42,852 nucleotides of DNA from a virus: IMG/VR virus record IMGVR_UViG_3300046804_003964, positions 1-42,852 of that record; one strand, given 5' to 3'. This document shows positions 6,664-35,820 of the stretch, piece by piece (the stretch's first letter is position 1; the number at the start of each line of letters is the position of its first letter). The notes beneath the pieces were generated by a model. That model worked only from the letters and a program-made list of their open reading frames with translations. It had not been told where the DNA came from and made no database searches. The position numbers and the translations under genes were made by a program.

Positions 6664-7289
6664 TGCGAACTGCTCTGGACACAGAGTTGTTTCCAGATCT
6701 TTGTGAAGTGGTAGCAATGCCACTTCACAATCAATGTGTTTATCTAATTCAGAAAAACGGAAACAGCAGTTTGAGACTTCAGCAAGCAAGAGATAATCTT
6801 GCTGTGTTTACCAATGACCAGATTCGGGCACTTGACCATGTGGATGTCTACATACGCAACCCCCGAGCCAGATATGTCAGTGGAGTTAACACATACCTGC
6901 AACATCTTCAACGCGATCACCCTGAATTAGACTTTTATACTGCATTATGGTTTGCCAAGAGATACAAGTTTTTAAACACACACTACTTGCCACAGTTTCA
7001 CTGGTTGGCAAATCTTTCTCGCTACCTACATAGTAACGCAAAAATACGTATTAGAGATTTTAGAGATTTTAATAAAATAACTGATATTAAATCTCGAGCA
7101 GAAATAGTGCCACCCACAACAGAATTCATCGATCAGTTACTAACTGATAATACCAATCTGGAACTATGGTTATATATAGATCAAATTTTGCTAGATTTGG
7201 CAGGACAAGAAATGACCTGGTTGGAATTGTTGGACTATTACCAACGCAATTATAAAAATATCATTGGACATGTATTGCCCAAGACTTGA
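6663..7289 (+). CDS. Sulfotransferase-like P-loop protein
   Basis: The N-terminal half has the two loops that bind the PAPS donor in cytosolic and Golgi-type sulfotransferases. VYLIQKNGNSSLR (27-38) resembles the 5'-phosphosulfate loop, with K31 and S35/S36. VDVYIRNPRARYVSGV (60-75) resembles the 3'-phosphate loop, with R65 and S73. The rest is helical (YLQHLQRDHPELDFYTALWF) as in the Sulfotransfer_2 family. The length of 208 residues is short for the family. The gene begins on the last base of the gp32 stop and overlaps the radical SAM gene by 20 bases. No PAPS-making genes are in the window, so host PAPS would be required. The acceptor is unknown. Confidence 0.65.
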   Translation: MRTALDTELFPDLCEVVAMPLHNQCVYLIQKNGNSSLRLQQARDNLAVFTNDQIRALDHVDVYIRNPRARYVSGVNTYLQHLQRDHPELDFYTALWFAKRYKFLNTHYLPQFHWLANLSRYLHSNAKIRIRDFRDFNKITDIKSRAEIVPPTTEFIDQLLTDNTNLELWLYIDQILLDLAGQEMTWLELLDYYQRNYKNIIGHVLPKT

Positions 7290-24194: not shown

Positions 24195-25217
24195 ATGAGT
24201 GCAATTCGAGTTCTGCGTGGTAACTATCGCGGTTTTCCAGTTATTGACACCCAGTTTGAACTGGTGTCTGGTTTTCAAACTGGGGCCAAAGGCAATTATG
24301 TAACTGTAAAAAATTCGGGAATTTTTCCTAAGTGTCCGGATACGATACGAATTCGTGTTGACAACATTTCTGACATCGAGTACACTACTGAGATGCAAGA
24401 AAATGTAGTTCGTATCGACAAGTCAGCAGGTATTGCAGAAACAGACGAGCAAGCCATGGATCGTATCCGTGAGCGTTTTGATATTTTGACTGAGATGAGC
24501 AAAGCCTGCGTGGGCGGCGACATCCGTGCTATGATTGTGAGCGGCCCTCCTGGTGTGGGCAAGAGCTTTGGCGTTGAACAAGAAATCGACAAGGCATGTA
24601 TGTTTGACAAGATTGCAGGCAAGCGATTGCGGGCCGAAGTCGTCAAAGGTTCGGCTACTCCGATCGGTTTGTATCAAACCCTGTACAAATACTCTGACCC
24701 CAACTGCGTGGTTGTGTTTGACGACTGTGACAGTATCTTGTTGGATGATGTTGCACTTAACCTGCTGAAAGGTGCCCTGGACTCAGGCAAGAAGCGTAAA
24801 ATTAGTTGGCTTGCCGACAGCCGTATTCTGCGTAGCGAAGGCATTCCTGACAGCTTCGAATTCAAAGGCAGTGTGATATTCATTACTAACTTGAAGTTTG
24901 ACAAAATGAAGTCGCAGAAACTGCGGGACCACTTGGATGCTCTGCAAAGTCGCTGTCACTATCTGGACCTGACCTTGGACACCATGCGTGACAAGATCCT
25001 GCGCATCCGTCAGATTGCCAAAGACGGTGTGCTGTTTGCAGACTACGACTTTGATCAAGCCGTGCAAGACGACATCATTGACTTCATGAACGAGAAGCAA
25101 AATCGTCTGCGTGAAATGAGCTTGCGTATGGCGCTGAAGATTGCGGACCTGCGCAAACTCAGCCCGCTGAACTGGAAGCGTCTTGCAGAAACCACTTGCA
25201 TGAAATCAGCAGATTAA
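24195..25217 (+). CDS. AAA+ ATPase
   Basis: The 340-residue product has Walker A GPPGVGKS (117-124) and Walker B VVVFDDCDS (172-180), with DD in place of the usual DE. Sensor 1 is IFITN (N232), and an R-x-x-R-x-R region lies near 270. About 105 residues before the P-loop form a separate beta-rich N-terminal domain, which may bind a partner. It is not a clamp loader gp44, which has GTGK and DEAD boxes. AGGAG before the ATG and promoter P3 indicate strong early expression. The gene is clearly richer in G+C than its neighbours. The target is unknown. Confidence 0.85.
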   Translation: MSAIRVLRGNYRGFPVIDTQFELVSGFQTGAKGNYVTVKNSGIFPKCPDTIRIRVDNISDIEYTTEMQENVVRIDKSAGIAETDEQAMDRIRERFDILTEMSKACVGGDIRAMIVSGPPGVGKSFGVEQEIDKACMFDKIAGKRLRAEVVKGSATPIGLYQTLYKYSDPNCVVVFDDCDSILLDDVALNLLKGALDSGKKRKISWLADSRILRSEGIPDSFEFKGSVIFITNLKFDKMKSQKLRDHLDALQSRCHYLDLTLDTMRDKILRIRQIAKDGVLFADYDFDQAVQDDIIDFMNEKQNRLREMSLRMALKIADLRKLSPLNWKRLAETTCMKSAD

Positions 25218-25676: not shown

Positions 25677-26531
25677 ATGCTTGTTATTACGTTGGGACAA
25701 CAAGATCCCATTACACTTAAATTTCAAATACGTAAAACTCCCTTGGCTGAACTGTGGGTAGAACGCATGCGAGAGCGTCTGAAGTGGCCCATGGACCATC
25801 CTGATAGATTCTACGGATTTGGCACTCCCAAACAAGAACGCGATCGTGCTGTGGCCGACATTCGTCGTTGTATTGCAACAATAAATCTCTGGGAACCTAT
25901 TATACATCGAGAGTTTGAGCATACACAGGATTGTCTAAATTATTTGCACAATATTTTTGAACGTTATCATGGACTGTTAGATCAACAAAACAGTGATTAT
26001 TGGAACCGAGCACCCAATGAAGTACGTTGCGCACTGGCAGAATTAAACATAGCTGTGCATAGATGCGAAAGTGTTTCTACAGGAAACCGTCCAAGATTTG
26101 TTTGTACTTGGTTTGGTATGCCCAAACTGTATTGCCTTGATCCAGAATTGCAAAGTATGTTTGGCGATTGGCGAATCAATTTTGGTACCGTGTATTTAAA
26201 CTATTGCGAAATTGGCAAAACCGCCGAAGACCTTGCACACGACAACGATAAGTACATCGACAAAGATGCATTCCGACCGTTCAATCATTACAGTGCCGAT
26301 TTCAATGTTGCATTTTATGATCGAGATCTAACTGCCATATACGGACAGATACAAAATTATATTGATCAACATCAAGACTTTTTTCTTGCTCACGACATAA
26401 GAAGTGTGTATAATATAAAAGCACAGCCACTGAGATTTCCTGTTGCTGATTTGGTCCACAATGGTAACAGAGAAAAATTACTATTTGAAATAGCCCAACG
26501 TCAATGGGTGCAGCAAGTAACATTAGAATGA
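25677..26531 (+). CDS. Conserved phage protein upstream of uvsW, unknown function
   Basis: A 284-residue protein with no motif I recognise. It is rich in aromatic and charged residues: an N-terminal strand-rich segment (VITLGQQDPITLKFQI), a central helical part with LNYLHNIFERYHGLL, and a C-terminal HDIRSVYNIKAQPLRFPVADL. The predicted leaderless start is described at the promoter entry. It overlaps uvsW by 4 bases (ATGA), so it probably feeds ribosomes into uvsW. A role in replication or recombination is suggested only by that coupling. Confidence 0.75.
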   Translation: MLVITLGQQDPITLKFQIRKTPLAELWVERMRERLKWPMDHPDRFYGFGTPKQERDRAVADIRRCIATINLWEPIIHREFEHTQDCLNYLHNIFERYHGLLDQQNSDYWNRAPNEVRCALAELNIAVHRCESVSTGNRPRFVCTWFGMPKLYCLDPELQSMFGDWRINFGTVYLNYCEIGKTAEDLAHDNDKYIDKDAFRPFNHYSADFNVAFYDRDLTAIYGQIQNYIDQHQDFFLAHDIRSVYNIKAQPLRFPVADLVHNGNREKLLFEIAQRQWVQQVTLE

Positions 26532-27997
26532 AAACAGCAACCATCGTCATACGAGATGAAGTCAATATCAAGGTTGAAGGATTAGATCTTGATGCACGAC
26601 GCACACTTGTCAACAAATTTAAATATGACATTCCTTATGCAAGATATTTGCCTGCGGTGCGCCTAGGTCGCTGGGACGGCAAAGTAAGTTTCTTCCAGCT
26701 TGGAGGCAGTACTTACGTCAACTTGCTTCCTGAGATTGTTCCTGCACTAGAACAAATGAATTACGACATTGAACTTGATGATCAAAGAAATTATTCAGTA
26801 ACATTTGATTTTGATGTTGTAGAAGAAGATCGCTGGGCATATAAAACTTGGCCCAAAGGTCATCCAGCAGTGGGTCAGCCAGTTATGTTACGTGATTATC
26901 AAGTAGAACTGGTTAATAACTTTTTAAAAAATCCTCAATGCATACAAGAAGTGGCCACTGGTGCAGGCAAAACAATCATGACAGCTACAATGAGTGCCGC
27001 AGTGGAGCCTTATGGTAGATCAATTATTATTGTACCCAACAAAAGCCTTGTAGAACAAACTGAAGTAGACTATATCAATCTTGGGTTGAATGTAGGTGTT
27101 TTCTACGGAGATCGCAAAGAACTAGGTCGCACTCACACCATTTGCACGTGGCAGAGTCTAAACGTGTTATTAAAAAATACAAAATCGGGCGCGGCCGAAT
27201 TTACCATCACGGATTTTATTGAAGATGTTGTGTGTGTTATTGTTGATGAAGTGCACATGGCCAAAGCCGACGCACTCAAAACCTTGCTCACCAGTGTTAT
27301 GGCCAAAGTTCCGTTGCGCTGGGGACTTACTGGAACTATTCCCAAAGAAAAGTTTGAAAGTCAAGCACTGTTGGTAAGTCTTGGCCCTGTCATTGGCAAA
27401 CTTTCGGCAAATGAACTTCAGCAACAAGGCGTGTTGGCGCAGTGTCATGTTAATATTGTGCAACTTCAAGACCACGTTGAATACGCCAACTATCAAAGCG
27501 AATTGAAATATTTGCTGGAAGAATCTGGCAGACTAGATACTATTGCTGCATTGATCCAACGTGTAAATGAAACAGGCAATACACTGGTGTTAGTGGATAG
27601 GGTAGCAGCCGGACAAGCATTAGTTGAAAGATTAGGAGACCGTGCTGTATTTGTATCAGGCGCAACCAAAGGATCAGAAAGAAAGGAACACTATGATGAA
27701 GTGGCAGAATCCTCAGACAAAATCATTGTGGCAACTTACGGGGTTGCCGCTGTGGGTATTAACATACCCCGTATATTTAACCTCGTGCTGGTTGAACCAG
27801 GTAAATCGTTTGTTAGAGTCATACAATCAATTGGACGAGGAATTCGCAAAGCCGAAGACAAAGATCATGTTCAAATCTGGGACGTTACCTCAACCTGCAA
27901 GTTTGCCAAACGACACCTTACCAAGCGCAAGGCCTACTACCGAGAAGCGAACTACCCGTTCACGCAAGAAAAACTTGAATGGATGAAGGTAAAATAA
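26528..27997 (+). CDS. uvsW: UvsW-like superfamily 2 helicase
   Basis: UvsW unwinds branched DNA and R-loops and shifts T4 from origin- to recombination-dependent replication. The 489-residue product has the N-terminal UvsW domain (INVKVEGLDLDARRTLVNKFKYDIPYARYLPAVRLGRWDG-type sequence at 11-51). Then come LRDYQ (121-125), ATGAGKT (143-149), DEVH (240-243), the GLTGT motif III region, and the C-terminal VASYG(V/A)-type segment with SIGRGIRK motif VI. ATG 26528, in ATGA overlap, is taken as the start rather than in-frame 26504. It ends just before an inverted repeat and promoter. Confidence 0.95.
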   Translation: MKTATIVIRDEVNIKVEGLDLDARRTLVNKFKYDIPYARYLPAVRLGRWDGKVSFFQLGGSTYVNLLPEIVPALEQMNYDIELDDQRNYSVTFDFDVVEEDRWAYKTWPKGHPAVGQPVMLRDYQVELVNNFLKNPQCIQEVATGAGKTIMTATMSAAVEPYGRSIIIVPNKSLVEQTEVDYINLGLNVGVFYGDRKELGRTHTICTWQSLNVLLKNTKSGAAEFTITDFIEDVVCVIVDEVHMAKADALKTLLTSVMAKVPLRWGLTGTIPKEKFESQALLVSLGPVIGKLSANELQQQGVLAQCHVNIVQLQDHVEYANYQSELKYLLEESGRLDTIAALIQRVNETGNTLVLVDRVAAGQALVERLGDRAVFVSGATKGSERKEHYDEVAESSDKIIVATYGVAAVGINIPRIFNLVLVEPGKSFVRVIQSIGRGIRKAEDKDHVQIWDVTSTCKFAKRHLTKRKAYYREANYPFTQEKLEWMKVK

Positions 27998-29156: not shown

Positions 29157-29592
29157 CCGCCTAAACATTGCCAACGAAATGAAGATGTTTGACCATAAGG
29201 TCAGATCATTCTATGACGACTTAACCAATGAGGAAAAGAAAAAGTTTTCGAATTACTTGATGATACGTTGGGGTAGCTCTGTGCAGGGAGGTAGAGAAAT
29301 GCAAGAGTTTTATGTTATTTCCGCCAATGAGCGCCTAAACAAACACTTTTTTGATCTAAGCCGTCACCCCAAGCTGCAATGGTTGCTGGCCACAACAGTG
29401 AGTCCGGGCATGGGCACACAGAGACATCAATGGATTGCTCCTAAGAAGAAAGAAGCAGGCGCTGGCAGTTTAAAAAAACAACTGGCTGAGCTGTTCCCTA
29501 ACTACAAAGATGACGAAATTGATGTGTTGGCCGCTGTTACCACAAAGAAAGAACTCGACGAATACATCCGACAACACGGCAGAGAAAAATGA
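29149..29592 (+). CDS. Conserved phage protein, unknown function
   Basis: A 147-residue basic helical protein: FYDDLTNEEKKKFSNYLMIRWGSS, HFFDLSRHPKLQWLLATTVSPG and KQLAELFPNYKDDEIDVLAAV. The HPKLQWLLATT segment is familiar from uncultured phages. It does not match T4 gp62 or gp59 well enough to name. It lies in a compact run of small genes between uvsW and the mini-DnaE gene, which suggests a replication accessory role. Confidence 0.75.
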   Translation: MSDRLNIANEMKMFDHKVRSFYDDLTNEEKKKFSNYLMIRWGSSVQGGREMQEFYVISANERLNKHFFDLSRHPKLQWLLATTVSPGMGTQRHQWIAPKKKEAGAGSLKKQLAELFPNYKDDEIDVLAAVTTKKELDEYIRQHGREK

Positions 29593-30263
29593 CATTTGTC
29601 TGTGAGTATTGTAAGAAAACATTTGCCAGAGAAAACAGTATTGAGGTTCACATGTGTGAGCCCAAGCGTCGTAGGCTAAACCGAGATGATCCAGGTGTTC
29701 GTATTGGGTTTCAAGCCTACATCAAGTTTTATGAACAAGCACAAGGGTCGGCCCGACTAAAAACCTATGAAGATTTTTGCGATTCAAGTTACTACTTGGC
29801 CTTTGTAAAGTTTGGACGTTATTGTGTTGGTGCCCGGACAGTCAATCCTGGTCAGTTTATGAATTGGTTATTGAAGAATCAAAAAAAGATTGATCGTTGG
29901 GCATCAGATCAACTGTATACAGAATATTTGATCTGGTATTTGACTGTGGAAGCAATAGATGATGCCTTGACCAGGGCAATGGAGTATGCTATAGACTGGG
30001 CTGAGAAAAACAACTATCCCAGTCAGGATTGTGTGCGCTATGGCAATGCCAATGCTACCTGCTATGCTATAACCACTGGCAGACTGAGCCCTTGGGTGAT
30101 TTACAACTCAGAATCTGGACAGAAGTTTTTAGCAGAAGCCAATGAAGAACAAATAGCAATGATTTGGTCTTATATCAATGTAGATGTGTGGAACAAAAAA
30201 TTTGCAGATTACCCAGCAGACCAAGAGTACGTGAAAGACATATTGAACAAAGCAGGATGGTAA
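29589..30263 (+). CDS. Zinc-finger-bearing conserved phage protein
   Basis: The 224-residue product starts with a C2HC finger, C5-x2-C8-x12-H21-x-C23 (VCEYCKKTFARENSIEVHMC), followed by the basic patch KRRRLNR. The rest is helical (YIKFYEQAQGSARLKTYEDF, WLLKNQKKIDRWASDQLYTEYLIWYL) and ends VKDILNKAGW. The finger plus basic patch suggests nucleic-acid or protein binding. It has an ATGA overlap with the previous gene. The family is familiar from aquatic phages but has no assigned role. Confidence 0.75.
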   Translation: MTFVCEYCKKTFARENSIEVHMCEPKRRRLNRDDPGVRIGFQAYIKFYEQAQGSARLKTYEDFCDSSYYLAFVKFGRYCVGARTVNPGQFMNWLLKNQKKIDRWASDQLYTEYLIWYLTVEAIDDALTRAMEYAIDWAEKNNYPSQDCVRYGNANATCYAITTGRLSPWVIYNSESGQKFLAEANEEQIAMIWSYINVDVWNKKFADYPADQEYVKDILNKAGW

Positions 30264-30264
30264 T

Positions 30265-30624
30265 ATGATTAAGACTATAAATGGCGGACCTGGAATCACT
30301 ATTCAAAACAATAGTTCGTGGCCTAGTTTTTACAATACTACAGCAGGCAACTCATTGGTTGGCCAAGTCAGATACAATGGCACAAATCAAAACATGGAAG
30401 TGTATGATGGTAACTCTTGGATGCTACTGACTTCGGGGTATCCAACAATTGCACTGGCACCAGAAGTGCAGGAAGTAGTAACTTGGGCTCAGACCAAGAT
30501 GACCGAAGAAGCACGTCTTCGAGAACTTGCGGTAAAGCATCCAAGTGTAGCAGATGCTTTAGAAGCAGTTGCTCACGCCAAAGAGCAAGTTAAAATTGTG
30601 GCCGCATTGGTAGATAACGCATGA
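30265..30624 (+). CDS. Small virion-like protein
   Basis: A 119-residue protein whose N-terminal 60 residues (GGPGITIQNN, GQVRYNGTNQNMEVYDGNSWMLL) match the short beta motifs of phage fibre and neck proteins (R-Y-N-x-x-x-x-x-x-E-V-Y-D-G-x-x-W). The rest is a helical tail (LRELAVKHPSVADALEAVAHAKEQVKIVAALV). It sits alone among replication genes and overlaps the mini-DnaE gene by 4 bases. Confidence 0.7.
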   Translation: MIKTINGGPGITIQNNSSWPSFYNTTAGNSLVGQVRYNGTNQNMEVYDGNSWMLLTSGYPTIALAPEVQEVVTWAQTKMTEEARLRELAVKHPSVADALEAVAHAKEQVKIVAALVDNA

Positions 30625-31199
30625 GTGCAGATATTGACCTTGACTTTGCTGACAGAGATAGTATACTGAAGTTGATTCAACACACACCTGCACGACAAAT
30701 CGTAGACGGCCGAGTTAGGCGTCATAATTCTGGCGTATATGTCACAGACATACCCTGGGATCCGGTGCATGAATGTGCCGCAATCGATTATCAAACTGCT
30801 GAAGATCGAGGATATTTCAAAATTGACTTCTTGAACATGCATGTTTATAAGTTGATTGAGAGTGCACAACACTACGAACAAATGTTAGCAAACACACCCC
30901 CGTGGCAACGTCTGTGGCAAGACCCCGAATGGGCACGACAGTTAGTGCACATTGGAAATTACACAGACTTACTGAAACAAATGAAGCCAAATTCACTTCA
31001 GCGTATGGCCGCATTTATTTCAATTATTCGTCCAGGTAAAGCACACTTGCAGAACAAAGACTGGACTACTGTGTTTGATACTGTGTGGGACGGCGATGAC
31101 AGTCGGGGCTATACTTTTAAAAAAGCACATGCAATCAGTTATGCGGCTCTGGTTGCTTTACATATGAATTTACTTAATCAAGTCGTCGAACAAGTGTAA
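30621..31199 (+). CDS. Miniature protein with DnaE (Pol III alpha) signatures
   Basis: A 192-residue protein that carries, in order, the conserved elements of bacterial replicative polymerase DnaE. DIDLDFADR (4-12) corresponds to the palm DxD. RRHNSGVYVTDIP (33-45) resembles the H-x-x-G-V-x-x-x-P segment. FKIDFLNMHVYKLI (66-79) matches the KFDFLGL motif of the third catalytic Asp. IIRPGK (135-140) matches the ALxRPG region, and YTFKKAHAISYAAL (164-177) matches FNKSHAxAYA. The three acidic positions D6, D8 and D69 are all present. PHP, tau-binding and most thumb and finger parts are missing. It may be a polymerase remnant or a co-opted scaffold. Confidence 0.7.
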   Translation: MSADIDLDFADRDSILKLIQHTPARQIVDGRVRRHNSGVYVTDIPWDPVHECAAIDYQTAEDRGYFKIDFLNMHVYKLIESAQHYEQMLANTPPWQRLWQDPEWARQLVHIGNYTDLLKQMKPNSLQRMAAFISIIRPGKAHLQNKDWTTVFDTVWDGDDSRGYTFKKAHAISYAALVALHMNLLNQVVEQV

Positions 31200-31551
31200 T
31201 TGACTTACGCTTTGACTTTTTACGGGCTATTTCGTTAAGACTGCAAACGGGTCCGTGTATTATTTCTAAATCTTTGTTGCTGAATGTTCTCAAATAAGGG
31301 CGAAAAATTTCCCAATCTTCTTTGAGAAAAATGTTTATTGGAATGCTACGATTGCTTTCCCACCACCATATGTTTGCTAGTTCTAAAAACTGGCGCTTGA
31401 GATCTTGGTTCTGTATACTGCCAAAATCGTAGATTGTAGTAATGGAATCGTCGTGATTTTGTACTATTCCAACATATTCATTGCTTGCGTAAATGCAAAG
31501 CGTTATGAAAGGATATTTTTCAGCCAATTTTTCGAAGATGTCACTACCCAT
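31174..31551 (-). CDS. Conserved phage protein on the minus strand
   Basis: A 125-residue protein of alpha/beta character (FITLCIYASNEYVGIVQNHD, TIYDFGSI, FLELANIWWWESNRSIPINIFLK). The strand order and WWWESNR-PI-I segment appear in small phage proteins I recall, without known role. It converges with the mini-DnaE gene and shares 26 bases at the 3' ends. On the other side it faces a late box for the virion gene at 31572. It is the only minus-strand gene outside the glycan block. Confidence 0.78.
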   Translation of the reverse strand: MGSDIFEKLAEKYPFITLCIYASNEYVGIVQNHDDSITTIYDFGSIQNQDLKRQFLELANIWWWESNRSIPINIFLKEDWEIFRPYLRTFSNKDLEIIHGPVCSLNEIARKKSKRKSITLVRRLD

Positions 31552-33431: not shown

Positions 33432-34403
33432 ATGCTAGATATCTTTGGTTACTTGCCTACAAAGCGTAAGCAAACGCCGTCGGGCTGGATCAGCTTTAAT
33501 TGTCCTTGCTGCAACGAAAAGCGCAGCCGCGGCGGACTCAAAACCAATGAACAAGGCTGGAGCTATCATTGCTTCAACTGTGGATACACTGCTAGCTTTG
33601 TGTTGGGCAGGACACTGGGATACAAAGCGACAACTTTGTTAGAACGTCTTGGTGTCCCTGAGCAAGAACTAAATGCACTAAATTTAGAAAGTCTGAGACA
33701 TCGTAACATACACGGCATATTAGATGATCGTATTAGAACTGCTAACACAGTCAGTGACATCAAATTTGAAGAGTTTGATGACTTTCCGCCGGCCAGCGAA
33801 TTGATTACACCAGATCTTCCACTGTACTGGAAATATCTGCGAGATAGATGTGTTCCTGAAGACTTTCCTGCAATGACCACAATTCGCACAGATGGCATTC
33901 ACTGGGTCAGGCCGCATGTGACAATACCTTTTGCCTACGATGGAAAAATTGTAGGCTGGTGTGCTAGATTTTTAGACAACAAAACACCCAAATACATCAA
34001 CCATACTCAGCCAGGCTATGTGTTTGGCACAGAATTACAGCGTGACAATTGGCAATATGCCATTGTAGTAGAAGGTATATTTGATGCACTGTGTATCGAT
34101 GGCTTGGCAGTGATGCACAATACAATAAGCGACACACAGGCAAGATTGATTCGCAATCTTGGCAAAGAAGTTATTGTGGTACCAGATCAAGACAAAGCAG
34201 GTTTAGAGCTTGTGGACCGAGCTGTGGAACTGGGTTGGTCGGTGAGCATACCTGATTGGTCTGAGGGTGTCAAAGATGTAAACGATGCTGTGGTAAAGTT
34301 TGGTAAACTAGCAACTCTGCTAACTATAATACAGTCCCGAGAAACCAGCCGAATTAAGATAGAACTAAGGAAGAAAAATCTTGCTAAAAGAATACAACGT
34401 TGA
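33432..34403 (+). CDS. 61: DNA primase (T4 gp61-like)
   Basis: It makes RNA primers for lagging-strand synthesis. The 323-residue product has an N-terminal zinc ribbon with C24/C27 (FNCPCCNEK) and C47/C50 (YHCFNCGY) and the CHC2-type GLKTNEQGW between. A middle domain contains IPFAYDGKIVGWCARF. The TOPRIM domain is IVVEGIFDALCIDGL, then VIVVPDQDKAGLELVDRAVELGW. The size is close to T4 gp61 (342). It is followed in 23-base overlap by the helicase, the reverse of the T4 41-61 order. Confidence 0.95.
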   Translation: MLDIFGYLPTKRKQTPSGWISFNCPCCNEKRSRGGLKTNEQGWSYHCFNCGYTASFVLGRTLGYKATTLLERLGVPEQELNALNLESLRHRNIHGILDDRIRTANTVSDIKFEEFDDFPPASELITPDLPLYWKYLRDRCVPEDFPAMTTIRTDGIHWVRPHVTIPFAYDGKIVGWCARFLDNKTPKYINHTQPGYVFGTELQRDNWQYAIVVEGIFDALCIDGLAVMHNTISDTQARLIRNLGKEVIVVPDQDKAGLELVDRAVELGWSVSIPDWSEGVKDVNDAVVKFGKLATLLTIIQSRETSRIKIELRKKNLAKRIQR

Positions 34404-35820
34404 AGTTCAACGACTGTTTTTAGAAATGATGTTGGAAGATGCACAGAGTTATGTGCGTGTTCAAAACATCTACAATCCACAAAACTTTGATAGAAGTCTG
34501 CGGCCAGTTGCAGAGTTTATCAAAGAACACAGTGACAAACACAAGACGTTGCCTGATCGCACACAGATCTCTGCGGCCACTGGTGTTAAACTCAATCCAG
34601 TACCCGAACTCAATGAAGGTCACTATGAGTGGTTTATGCAGGAGTTTGAAAGATTTACCAAGCGCCAGGAACTCGAACGAGCAATTCTCAAAGCCGCAGA
34701 CTTGCTGGAAAAAGGTGAATTTGAGCCAGTGGAAAAACTTATCAAAGATGCTGTGCAAATAAGTCTGACCAAGGATCTGGGCACAGACTTTTGGCAGGAT
34801 CCCGAAGGCATGTTTGCTCGATATTTTGACAACGGTGGTCAAGTTTCTACAGGTTGGCCACAATTGGATCGGTTGTTGTATGGTGGATTTAGTCGTGGCG
34901 AACTCAACATCTTTGCCGGAGGTTCAGGGTCAGGTAAAAGCTTGATAATGATGAACATTGCACTGAACTGGGTTCAACAAGGATTGCATGGTGTTTATGT
35001 TACATTGGAACTTTCAGAAGAACTCACTGGACTAAGGACAGCGGCTATGTTGACCAATATGAGCACCAAGGATATTCGTAGAGACAAAGAAACTGCGGCA
35101 CTCAAAGTCAAACTAGTGGGGAAAAAGGCCGGCAGTTATAGAGTCAAAGCAATGCCAGCACAAAGCAACATCAACGACATTCGAGCGTTTTTGAAAGAGT
35201 ATCAAATTCAAACAGGACACAGAGTTGACTTTATGATGGTTGACTATTTGGACTTGTTGATGCCTGTCAGTGCCAAAGTCAGCCCCAACGACTTGTTTGT
35301 CAAAGACAAGTATGTGAGTGAAGAACTGCGTAACTTGGCCAAGGAATTGGGCATCTTGCTTGTGACAGCGTCTCAGTTGAATCGATCAGCGGTTGAGGAG
35401 ATTGAATTTGATCACAGTCATATATCAGGTGGTATTTCAAAGATCAATACAGCGGACAATGTATTTGGTATCTTTACAAGTCGTTCAAAGAGAGAACAAG
35501 GTAAGTATCAGATTCAGTGTATGAAGTCGCGTAGTTCCACAGGTGTTGGACAAAAGATTGATCTTGAATACAACATTGAAACCATGCGTATCACAGACGC
35601 CGGTGAACAAGAAGAAGGCTTTAGTAAAAAACCCACTAGTTCATTTATGGAACAGATCAAAGCCAAATCAAACATAAAAAGTGAGAGCACCGACAAATTA
35701 CCCGGAGCAACTGATGCCTGGGAAAAATCAATGTCTACCGTTGATGATTCTGTTAAAATTACTGCCGACGTACAAAGTGCCAAACTTAAACAGCTACTAG
35801 GCCAAATCAGACAAATATGA
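34381..35820 (+). CDS. 41: Replicative DNA helicase (T4 gp41-like, DnaB family)
   Basis: A hexameric 5'-3' helicase. The 479-residue product has an N-terminal helical domain (YNPQNFDRSLRPVAEFIKEHSDKHKTLPD), a linker helix, and then the RecA core. The core has TGWPQLDRLLYGGFSRGEL, Walker A GGSGSGKS (180-187), VTLELSEE, Walker B FMMVDYLDLLMP, and the ASQLNRSAVE/HISGGISKI motif 4. TTG 34381 is chosen because TAAGGAAG precedes it by the usual distance and the N-terminus is complete; ATG 34426 is the alternative. It overlaps primase, so the primosome is co-expressed. Confidence 0.95.
   Translation: MLKEYNVEVQRLFLEMMLEDAQSYVRVQNIYNPQNFDRSLRPVAEFIKEHSDKHKTLPDRTQISAATGVKLNPVPELNEGHYEWFMQEFERFTKRQELERAILKAADLLEKGEFEPVEKLIKDAVQISLTKDLGTDFWQDPEGMFARYFDNGGQVSTGWPQLDRLLYGGFSRGELNIFAGGSGSGKSLIMMNIALNWVQQGLHGVYVTLELSEELTGLRTAAMLTNMSTKDIRRDKETAALKVKLVGKKAGSYRVKAMPAQSNINDIRAFLKEYQIQTGHRVDFMMVDYLDLLMPVSAKVSPNDLFVKDKYVSEELRNLAKELGILLVTASQLNRSAVEEIEFDHSHISGGISKINTADNVFGIFTSRSKREQGKYQIQCMKSRSSTGVGQKIDLEYNIETMRITDAGEQEEGFSKKPTSSFMEQIKAKSNIKSESTDKLPGATDAWEKSMSTVDDSVKITADVQSAKLKQLLGQIRQI

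Follow-up and report, generated by a model that had tools for sequence, protein, structure and literature searches.

What can a protein of 192 residues do with the active site of a bacterial replicase? The question is raised by a gene in a 42,852-nucleotide stretch of viral DNA (IMG/VR record IMGVR_UViG_3300046804_003964; hereafter the window), whose product was described at the outset as a miniature DnaE-like protein. The motifs quoted in that preliminary description are all present in the protein and stand in the order in which DnaE carries them. We propose, at a probability of roughly 0.7, that the gene (Table 1) encodes the C-terminal, metal-binding half of a split minimal DnaE-type polymerase, a predicted two-chain enzyme; we refer to this half as the C-half and to its partner (phrog_11127) as the N-half. 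The split family has been in print since 2021, and the protein of the window is one more member of it in which the key active-site residues are kept.

Table 1. The C-half gene, its landmarks and its neighbours (window coordinates; residue equivalents are those of E. coli DnaE)
Feature	Coordinates	Strand	Evidence or remark
UvsW-type helicase, left side of conserved replication block	26504..27997	+	phrog_16 DNA helicase, 9.6e-73; the name UvsW rests on position and on analogy with named relatives
119-aa ORF	30265..30624	+	PHROG matches all weak, none of known function
C-half gene (split DnaE-like Pol III alpha, phrog_11778)	30621..31199	+	192 aa plus stop, ATG start
Codons D4-I5-D6-L7-D8 (D401, D403, D405 equivalents)	30630..30644	+	Profile alignment; D4, D6, D8 invariant, 207/207
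Residues 17-34, where about 79 DnaE residues (thumb region) are missing	30669..30722	+	Profile alignment
Codons K67-I68-D69 (K553, D555 equivalents)	30819..30827	+	Profile alignment; K67, D69 invariant, 207/207
R137 to H170 (R639, H760 equivalents), about 88 finger residues missing between	31029..31130	+	Profile alignment
Convergent small gene, phrog_11637, function unknown	31174..31551	-	PHROG match
gp61-type DNA primase	33432..34403	+	phrog_47, 3.9e-41
gp41/DnaB-type replicative helicase	34381..35820	+	phrog_19, 1.5e-68

The C-half ORF opens within an ATGA overlap, in which the stop codon of the 119-aa ORF and its own start codon are shared. In a PHROG profile search (which covered 41 of the 79 window ORFs of at least 90 aa), residues 3-187 of the C-half protein matched phrog_11778 ('DNA polymerase') at 1.1e-53, and phrog_405, the full-length phage DnaE family, also matched the protein at 5e-7. 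In Pfam, the finger domain PF17657 fell below the cutoff for this protein (E 0.038; 13.8 bits vs 22) and was matched at E 0.01 or better by 11 of the 64 members of the C-half family alignment; the PHP, HhH/clamp-binding and OB domains gave no Pfam match in the C-half protein. A search of the PDB with the protein as a single sequence returned no match, and solved DnaE proteins matched the C-half profile alone weakly (E 0.045-0.24). Identity to ten named-phage proteins was 29-42% in a twelve-sequence alignment.

Codons of the locus that is identical to the window were compared with those of ten relatives. For the C-half, pN was 0.08-0.16 and pS 0.69-0.85, the latter near saturation, and dN/dS was 0.046-0.047 in the two computable pairs, the other eight being saturated; for the N-half, compared in four pairs, pN was 0.07-0.19 and the ratio 0.10-0.20 in the three pairs for which it could be computed. 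The C-half is under strong purifying selection. This selection, together with the residue invariance described below, led us to reject the idea that the gene is a truncated pseudogene. Chance similarity was rejected in view of the phrog_11778 match, the same invariance, and best fold matches that are all to Pol III alpha or PolC. The ORF is real and of DnaE ancestry, yet half an enzyme.

The residues that matter for catalysis were placed by using hhalign to align a profile of the 64 C-half family members with E. coli DnaE (NC_000913). In local mode the profile aligned to DnaE residues 398-782 (P 1.6e-4). (Note that global mode missed this register and put the profile at DnaE residues 1-80, which is plainly wrong.) Besides the equivalences in Table 1, the alignment pairs M1 with S398, K168 with K758, and Y174 with Y764. 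According to Timinskas et al. 2013 (PMC3919608), D401, D403 and D555 are the ligands of the catalytic magnesium and are absolutely conserved across the C family, and D405 is shared by every DnaE group, with Asn in its place in PolC. The preliminary description was correct that all three catalytic aspartates are kept, but it named them as D6, D8 and D69; because the profile alignment pairs D4, D6 and D69 with D401, D403 and D555, the trio is D4, D6 and D69, and D8 is the fourth, DnaE-specific Asp. (PolC resembles the C-half in its catalytic Asp trio and fold and differs at the D8/D405 position, where the same source gives Asn.) The short spacing between the second and third Asp was also borne out, with 63 residues from D6 to D69 as compared to 152 from D403 to D555. 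H760, a residue of the O helix that has been proposed as the steric gate of Pol III (PMC8485763), is present as H170.

Conservation at these positions is complete: D4, D6, D8, H35, G38, K67, D69, R137, P138, K140, H170 and Y174 are each found in 207 of the 207 distinct C-half domains drawn from 261 matching sequences, with the proviso that some of the 207 were found through motif patterns (in one search any of six, including the DIDLDFAD and FKIDFLNM stretches; in others the IRP and K..H...Y stretches only), so that the sampling partly selects for H170, Y174 and R137, and much less so for the Asp residues.

The size of the protein reflects two internal losses as well as missing ends. D6 and H35 are separated by 29 residues as compared to 108 for D403 and H511, and R137 and H170 by 33 residues as compared to 121 for R639 and H760; the lost finger residues include R709/R710. 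(The first gap is placed at the thumb on the basis of what we take to be the thumb boundaries in DnaE.) The full fingers with R709/R710, and the thumb, are thus not in the C-half protein, and the triphosphate-binding motif GRGS is absent from its chain. Since the chain starts after GRGS and runs only to the counterpart of DnaE residue 781, it does not include the PHP, HhH, clamp-binding and OB regions; in DnaE, the regions that bind the clamp, tau and the exonuclease presumably lie beyond that residue. With R709/R710 and the thumb region gone, DnaE-like polymerisation may therefore not be possible.

An AlphaFold2 model of the C-half protein (pLDDT 92.4, pTM 0.84) was compared with solved structures. 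The best 11 PDB matches returned by Foldseek were all Pol III alpha or PolC (counting as PolC, by its length and numbering, entry 9qpc, 'DNA polymerase with inhibitor'); the best E was 1.3e-3, and none of the PDB matches fell below E 0.001. With VIA-align, the top 12 rows were all Pol III or PolC (the best being 5lew, Z 9.0), and the next, unrelated row had Z 3.5. Residues 1-191 of the model superposed on residues 399-781 of E. coli alpha (2hnh, Z 8.2, rmsd 4.5, 185 aligned). The profile and fold searches both return Pol III alpha, so that the search-based refutation proposed at the outset came out in favour of DnaE.

Where, then, is the part of the palm that carries GRGS? A search of 13 relative records with PF07733 found, in 11 of them, another short gene at a separate genomic position, and the two records without such a gene are contigs of 133 kb and 99 kb. 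(Weak PF07733 matches in two of the 13 records, GAP32 at E 0.008 with two stops and a Vibrio phage at E 0.06, were considered as a third DnaE fragment and taken as noise.) The N-half proteins are 169-196 aa long, carry the GRGS motif, and have EF(L/F) followed by one to four residues at the C-terminus; all three that were scanned matched phrog_11127. At E <= 1e-8, C-half matches were found in 261 of 396 sequences and N-half matches in 123, and no fused ORF with both halves was found in the stop-to-stop ORFs of the 396, the window included. No N-half gene lies within the 42.9-kb window, which is a fragment. Thus, the suggestion that the protein is a minimal nucleotidyltransferase may hold for a two-protein enzyme only, and not for the lone chain, as the GRGS part is encoded separately in relatives; in the same way, the DnaE ancestry and the retained catalytic set were rightly recognized, but the interpretation built on them lacked the partner gene.

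The two proteins fit end to end on DnaE. The N-half corresponds to the upstream palm with GRGS and ends just before the DIDxDF strand, and the C-half begins at that strand. The N-half profile ends at E. coli DnaE residue 393 (E 2.6e-4), and among 104 distinct closed N-half ORFs, every one of which contains GRGS, the stop follows the last profile-matched residue directly in 96 and within four residues in all 104. An AlphaFold2 model of an N-half protein (the partner from locus L121; pLDDT 83.1, pTM 0.67) gave the same picture, as its residues 93-192 superposed on E. coli residues 278-393 (4jom, Z 10.7, rmsd 2.5, 94 aligned); every one of the 14 structure rows listed was Pol III or PolC. Since one half covers 278-393 and the other 399-781, the halves do not overlap and are separated by a gap of five residues. 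The phage chain is therefore broken in the palm before DIDxDF and, unlike cyanobacterial DnaE, its N-half has no intein-like extension. The break in cyanobacterial DnaE lies elsewhere.

The two genes also occur together. The C-half was found in 63 phage records (60 among the matches listed, plus RAS14 and two Alishewanella phages; a weak 64th, MT835885, covering 26% of the query at E 0.01, was dropped), and 62 of these 63 also have the N-half (59 of those listed, RAS14 and both Alishewanella phages). The sole exception, PP728206, is an unverified 109-kb Alcyoneusvirus record; RaK2 and K64-1, two phages of the same kind, have genomes of about 346 kb. Conversely, the C-half is present in all 60 of the N-half records listed, these being the best 60 of 110. 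(Note that the records viewed one by one were those listed and 40 of the 110 sampled at even steps; the weak tail of the sampled matches consisted mostly of Gordonia, Bacillus and other phages with DnaE or DNA polymerase annotations, plus Slickus01.) Among 14 IMG/VR contigs of more than 200 kb, all of which were picked because one half had already been found in them, the N-half is present in 14 and the C-half in 12; the two that have the N-half and no C-half are perhaps incomplete contigs.

PolB was found in 11 of 13, 3 of 3, and 11 of 13 of the relatives' records in three sets. Phages carrying the split enzyme range from 141 kb to 490 kb, and the Alishewanella phages Slicko01 and Slickus01, at 141 kb, have both halves and PolB; the split enzyme is therefore not confined to jumbo genomes. 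The C-half was also seen on five GTDB MAG contigs, one of them 335 kb, labelled as Natrialbaceae, Neomarinimicrobiota, Elusimicrobia, Cloacimonadota and Pacearchaeota, with the N-half too in the Neomarinimicrobiota and Pacearchaeota MAGs. These archaeal- and bacterial-labelled contigs are likely misbinned phage contigs.

Both genes lie among replication genes. In the window, the C-half is flanked by the UvsW-type helicase and by the gp61/gp41 primase-helicase pair. In relatives, annotated genes for a primase, a replicative helicase or both lie downstream of it, and in six of them a helicase is annotated on its upstream side as well; the stretch around the C-half in XacN1 contains no annotated primase or helicase, and the CM1 neighbourhood comes from an unannotated record. 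In PBECO4, GAP32, RaK2 and XacN1, the genes annotated close to the C-half include one for an epsilon or exonuclease subunit. In each of the six phages viewed, a clamp-loader or AAA-ATPase gene lies downstream of the N-half gene at a distance of about 0.7-2.6 kb. Only some 11 kb separates the halves in Slicko01, and this interval includes an RFC-type loader gene; the spacing in Slickus01 is likewise about 11 kb.

A split minimal Pol III alpha encoded beside PolB was described in group 2.2 jumbo phages by Iyer et al. 2021 (PMC7824862). Their account has the same division between an NTP-binding and a Mg2+/template-binding gene, genes that likewise lie far apart, PolB alongside, and the same C-terminal family. 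From that description and from shared phages such as Atu_ph07, rather than from an accession list, we infer that the proteins are PHROGs 11778 and 11127. We see no difference of kind between that system and ours, the partner gene of the window presumably lying outside the fragment. The statement that no known DnaE is this small accordingly holds for cellular DnaE, but not for phages, a small form of which was published in 2021 (PMC7824862). An N-half had also been noted before, as the paper on phage CBB lists CBB_328 as a truncated, 172-aa alpha-like protein (PMC5259590), and CBB_328 is the N-half. Our literature search found no biochemical or genetic experiments and no later work on the split enzyme, and the portion of a 2026 survey of bacterial polymerases that was available (PMC12926913) does not treat it. 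What is added here is the exact tiling of the halves, the residue invariance, retention of the steric gate, the linkage of the N-half gene to the clamp loader, and the non-jumbo carriers. Relative to E. coli DnaE, the split enzyme shares motif order, palm fold and the equivalents of D401, D403, D405, K553, D555, K758, H760 and Y764, and differs in being without PHP, the thumb region, most of the fingers, HhH/clamp-binding and OB, with its chain broken at 393/399.

Most likely, the two proteins work as a two-chain DnaE-type polymerase alongside PolB; we infer its assembly, activity and role. The N-half and C-half would bind each other non-covalently and so rebuild one nucleotidyltransferase palm, and the complex would extend a primer with dNTPs by two-metal-ion catalysis. 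It would act near the clamp-loader and helicase-primase machinery and beside the phage PolB, probably at gaps, ends or on one strand. Because the thumb region and most of the fingers are lost, low processivity is predicted unless the clamp or another partner holds the complex. A bolder reading, to which we give somewhat less than even odds, is that this DnaE core of about 290 residues is the smallest working C-family polymerase, obligately two-chain, thumb-less and deoxyribose-selecting, which the phage's gp44-type clamp loader or clamp, beside whose gene the N-half is found, would deliver to DNA for a task at the fork beyond the reach of PolB; it would then be no remnant but a separate second polymerase, retained in phages of 141-490 kb.

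The losses that predict low processivity could also mean that the halves form a nucleotidyltransferase other than a DNA polymerase, for instance one that extends RNA or DNA ends by a few nucleotides or modifies a protein. That R709/R710 are gone with the thumb region and most of the fingers, and that these phages already have PolB, would fit such an enzyme, but the proposed deoxyribose-selecting His (PMC8485763) is invariant (H170, 207/207) and both genes sit in replication neighbourhoods; we consider it unlikely, although it is the strongest of the competitors. The preliminary description had also raised an inhibitor or an inert scaffold, both of which are poorly supported given the invariance of the catalytic Asp residues, K67 and H170 (207/207) and the low pN. 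A non-catalytic scaffold or regulator of replication that keeps the fold, for instance to tether PolB, the clamp loader and the helicase, would agree with the small size and the reduced nucleic-acid-binding parts; we regard it as improbable, since it would not need the metal-binding Asp residues, K67, H170 and the GRGS of the partner, all of which are invariant. An inhibitor or decoy of host Pol III built from a DnaE fragment would explain the likeness to host DnaE, but it is very improbable for a protein that is carried with its partner by phages of very different hosts, has an active site invariant in 207 of 207, and ends at the 781 equivalent, short of where we presume the clamp-, tau- and exonuclease-binding parts to lie. 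Least probable of all is that protein splicing links the halves in the cell: cyanobacterial DnaE, which is likewise encoded by two genes and whose halves are joined via inteins, shows that a DnaE can be split (PMC3919608), but all 104 N-halves end within four residues of the conserved EF tail, leaving no room for the N-terminal intein part, and in 124 of the 207 distinct C-half ORFs even the most upstream start leaves at most four residues before DIDxD.

If the two-chain polymerase works, then a palm split inside its active site, without thumb or PHP and catalytically invariant, would mark the minimum for a C-family polymerase, and the question becomes why phages with a full PolB replicase retain a second, bacterial-type polymerase. 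Because the halves are short and easily expressed and phage-host pairs are available in laboratory strains, the 2021 proposal is directly testable.

Some further features of the surroundings were noted. A minus-strand ORF follows the C-half in all 11 of the annotated relatives viewed, directly in 10 and after one intervening ORF in XacN1 (these ORFs were compared by position and strand, not by homology). In the window, positions 29589-30263 (+) encode a phrog_11058 protein of a conserved family, with a weak N-terminal match to a C2H2 zinc finger, and positions 24195-25217 (+), near uvsW, encode an AAA ATPase (phrog_1250) that weakly resembles clamp-loader and DnaC-type loaders. Three separate radical-SAM proteins (starting at 7264, 9352 and 11808) are encoded around uvsX between 7264 and 13043, and beyond them lie heptose-adenylyltransferase-like and glycosyltransferase-like genes (15044, 22249). 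This radical-SAM/glycosyltransferase stretch is a cargo island inside the replication block.
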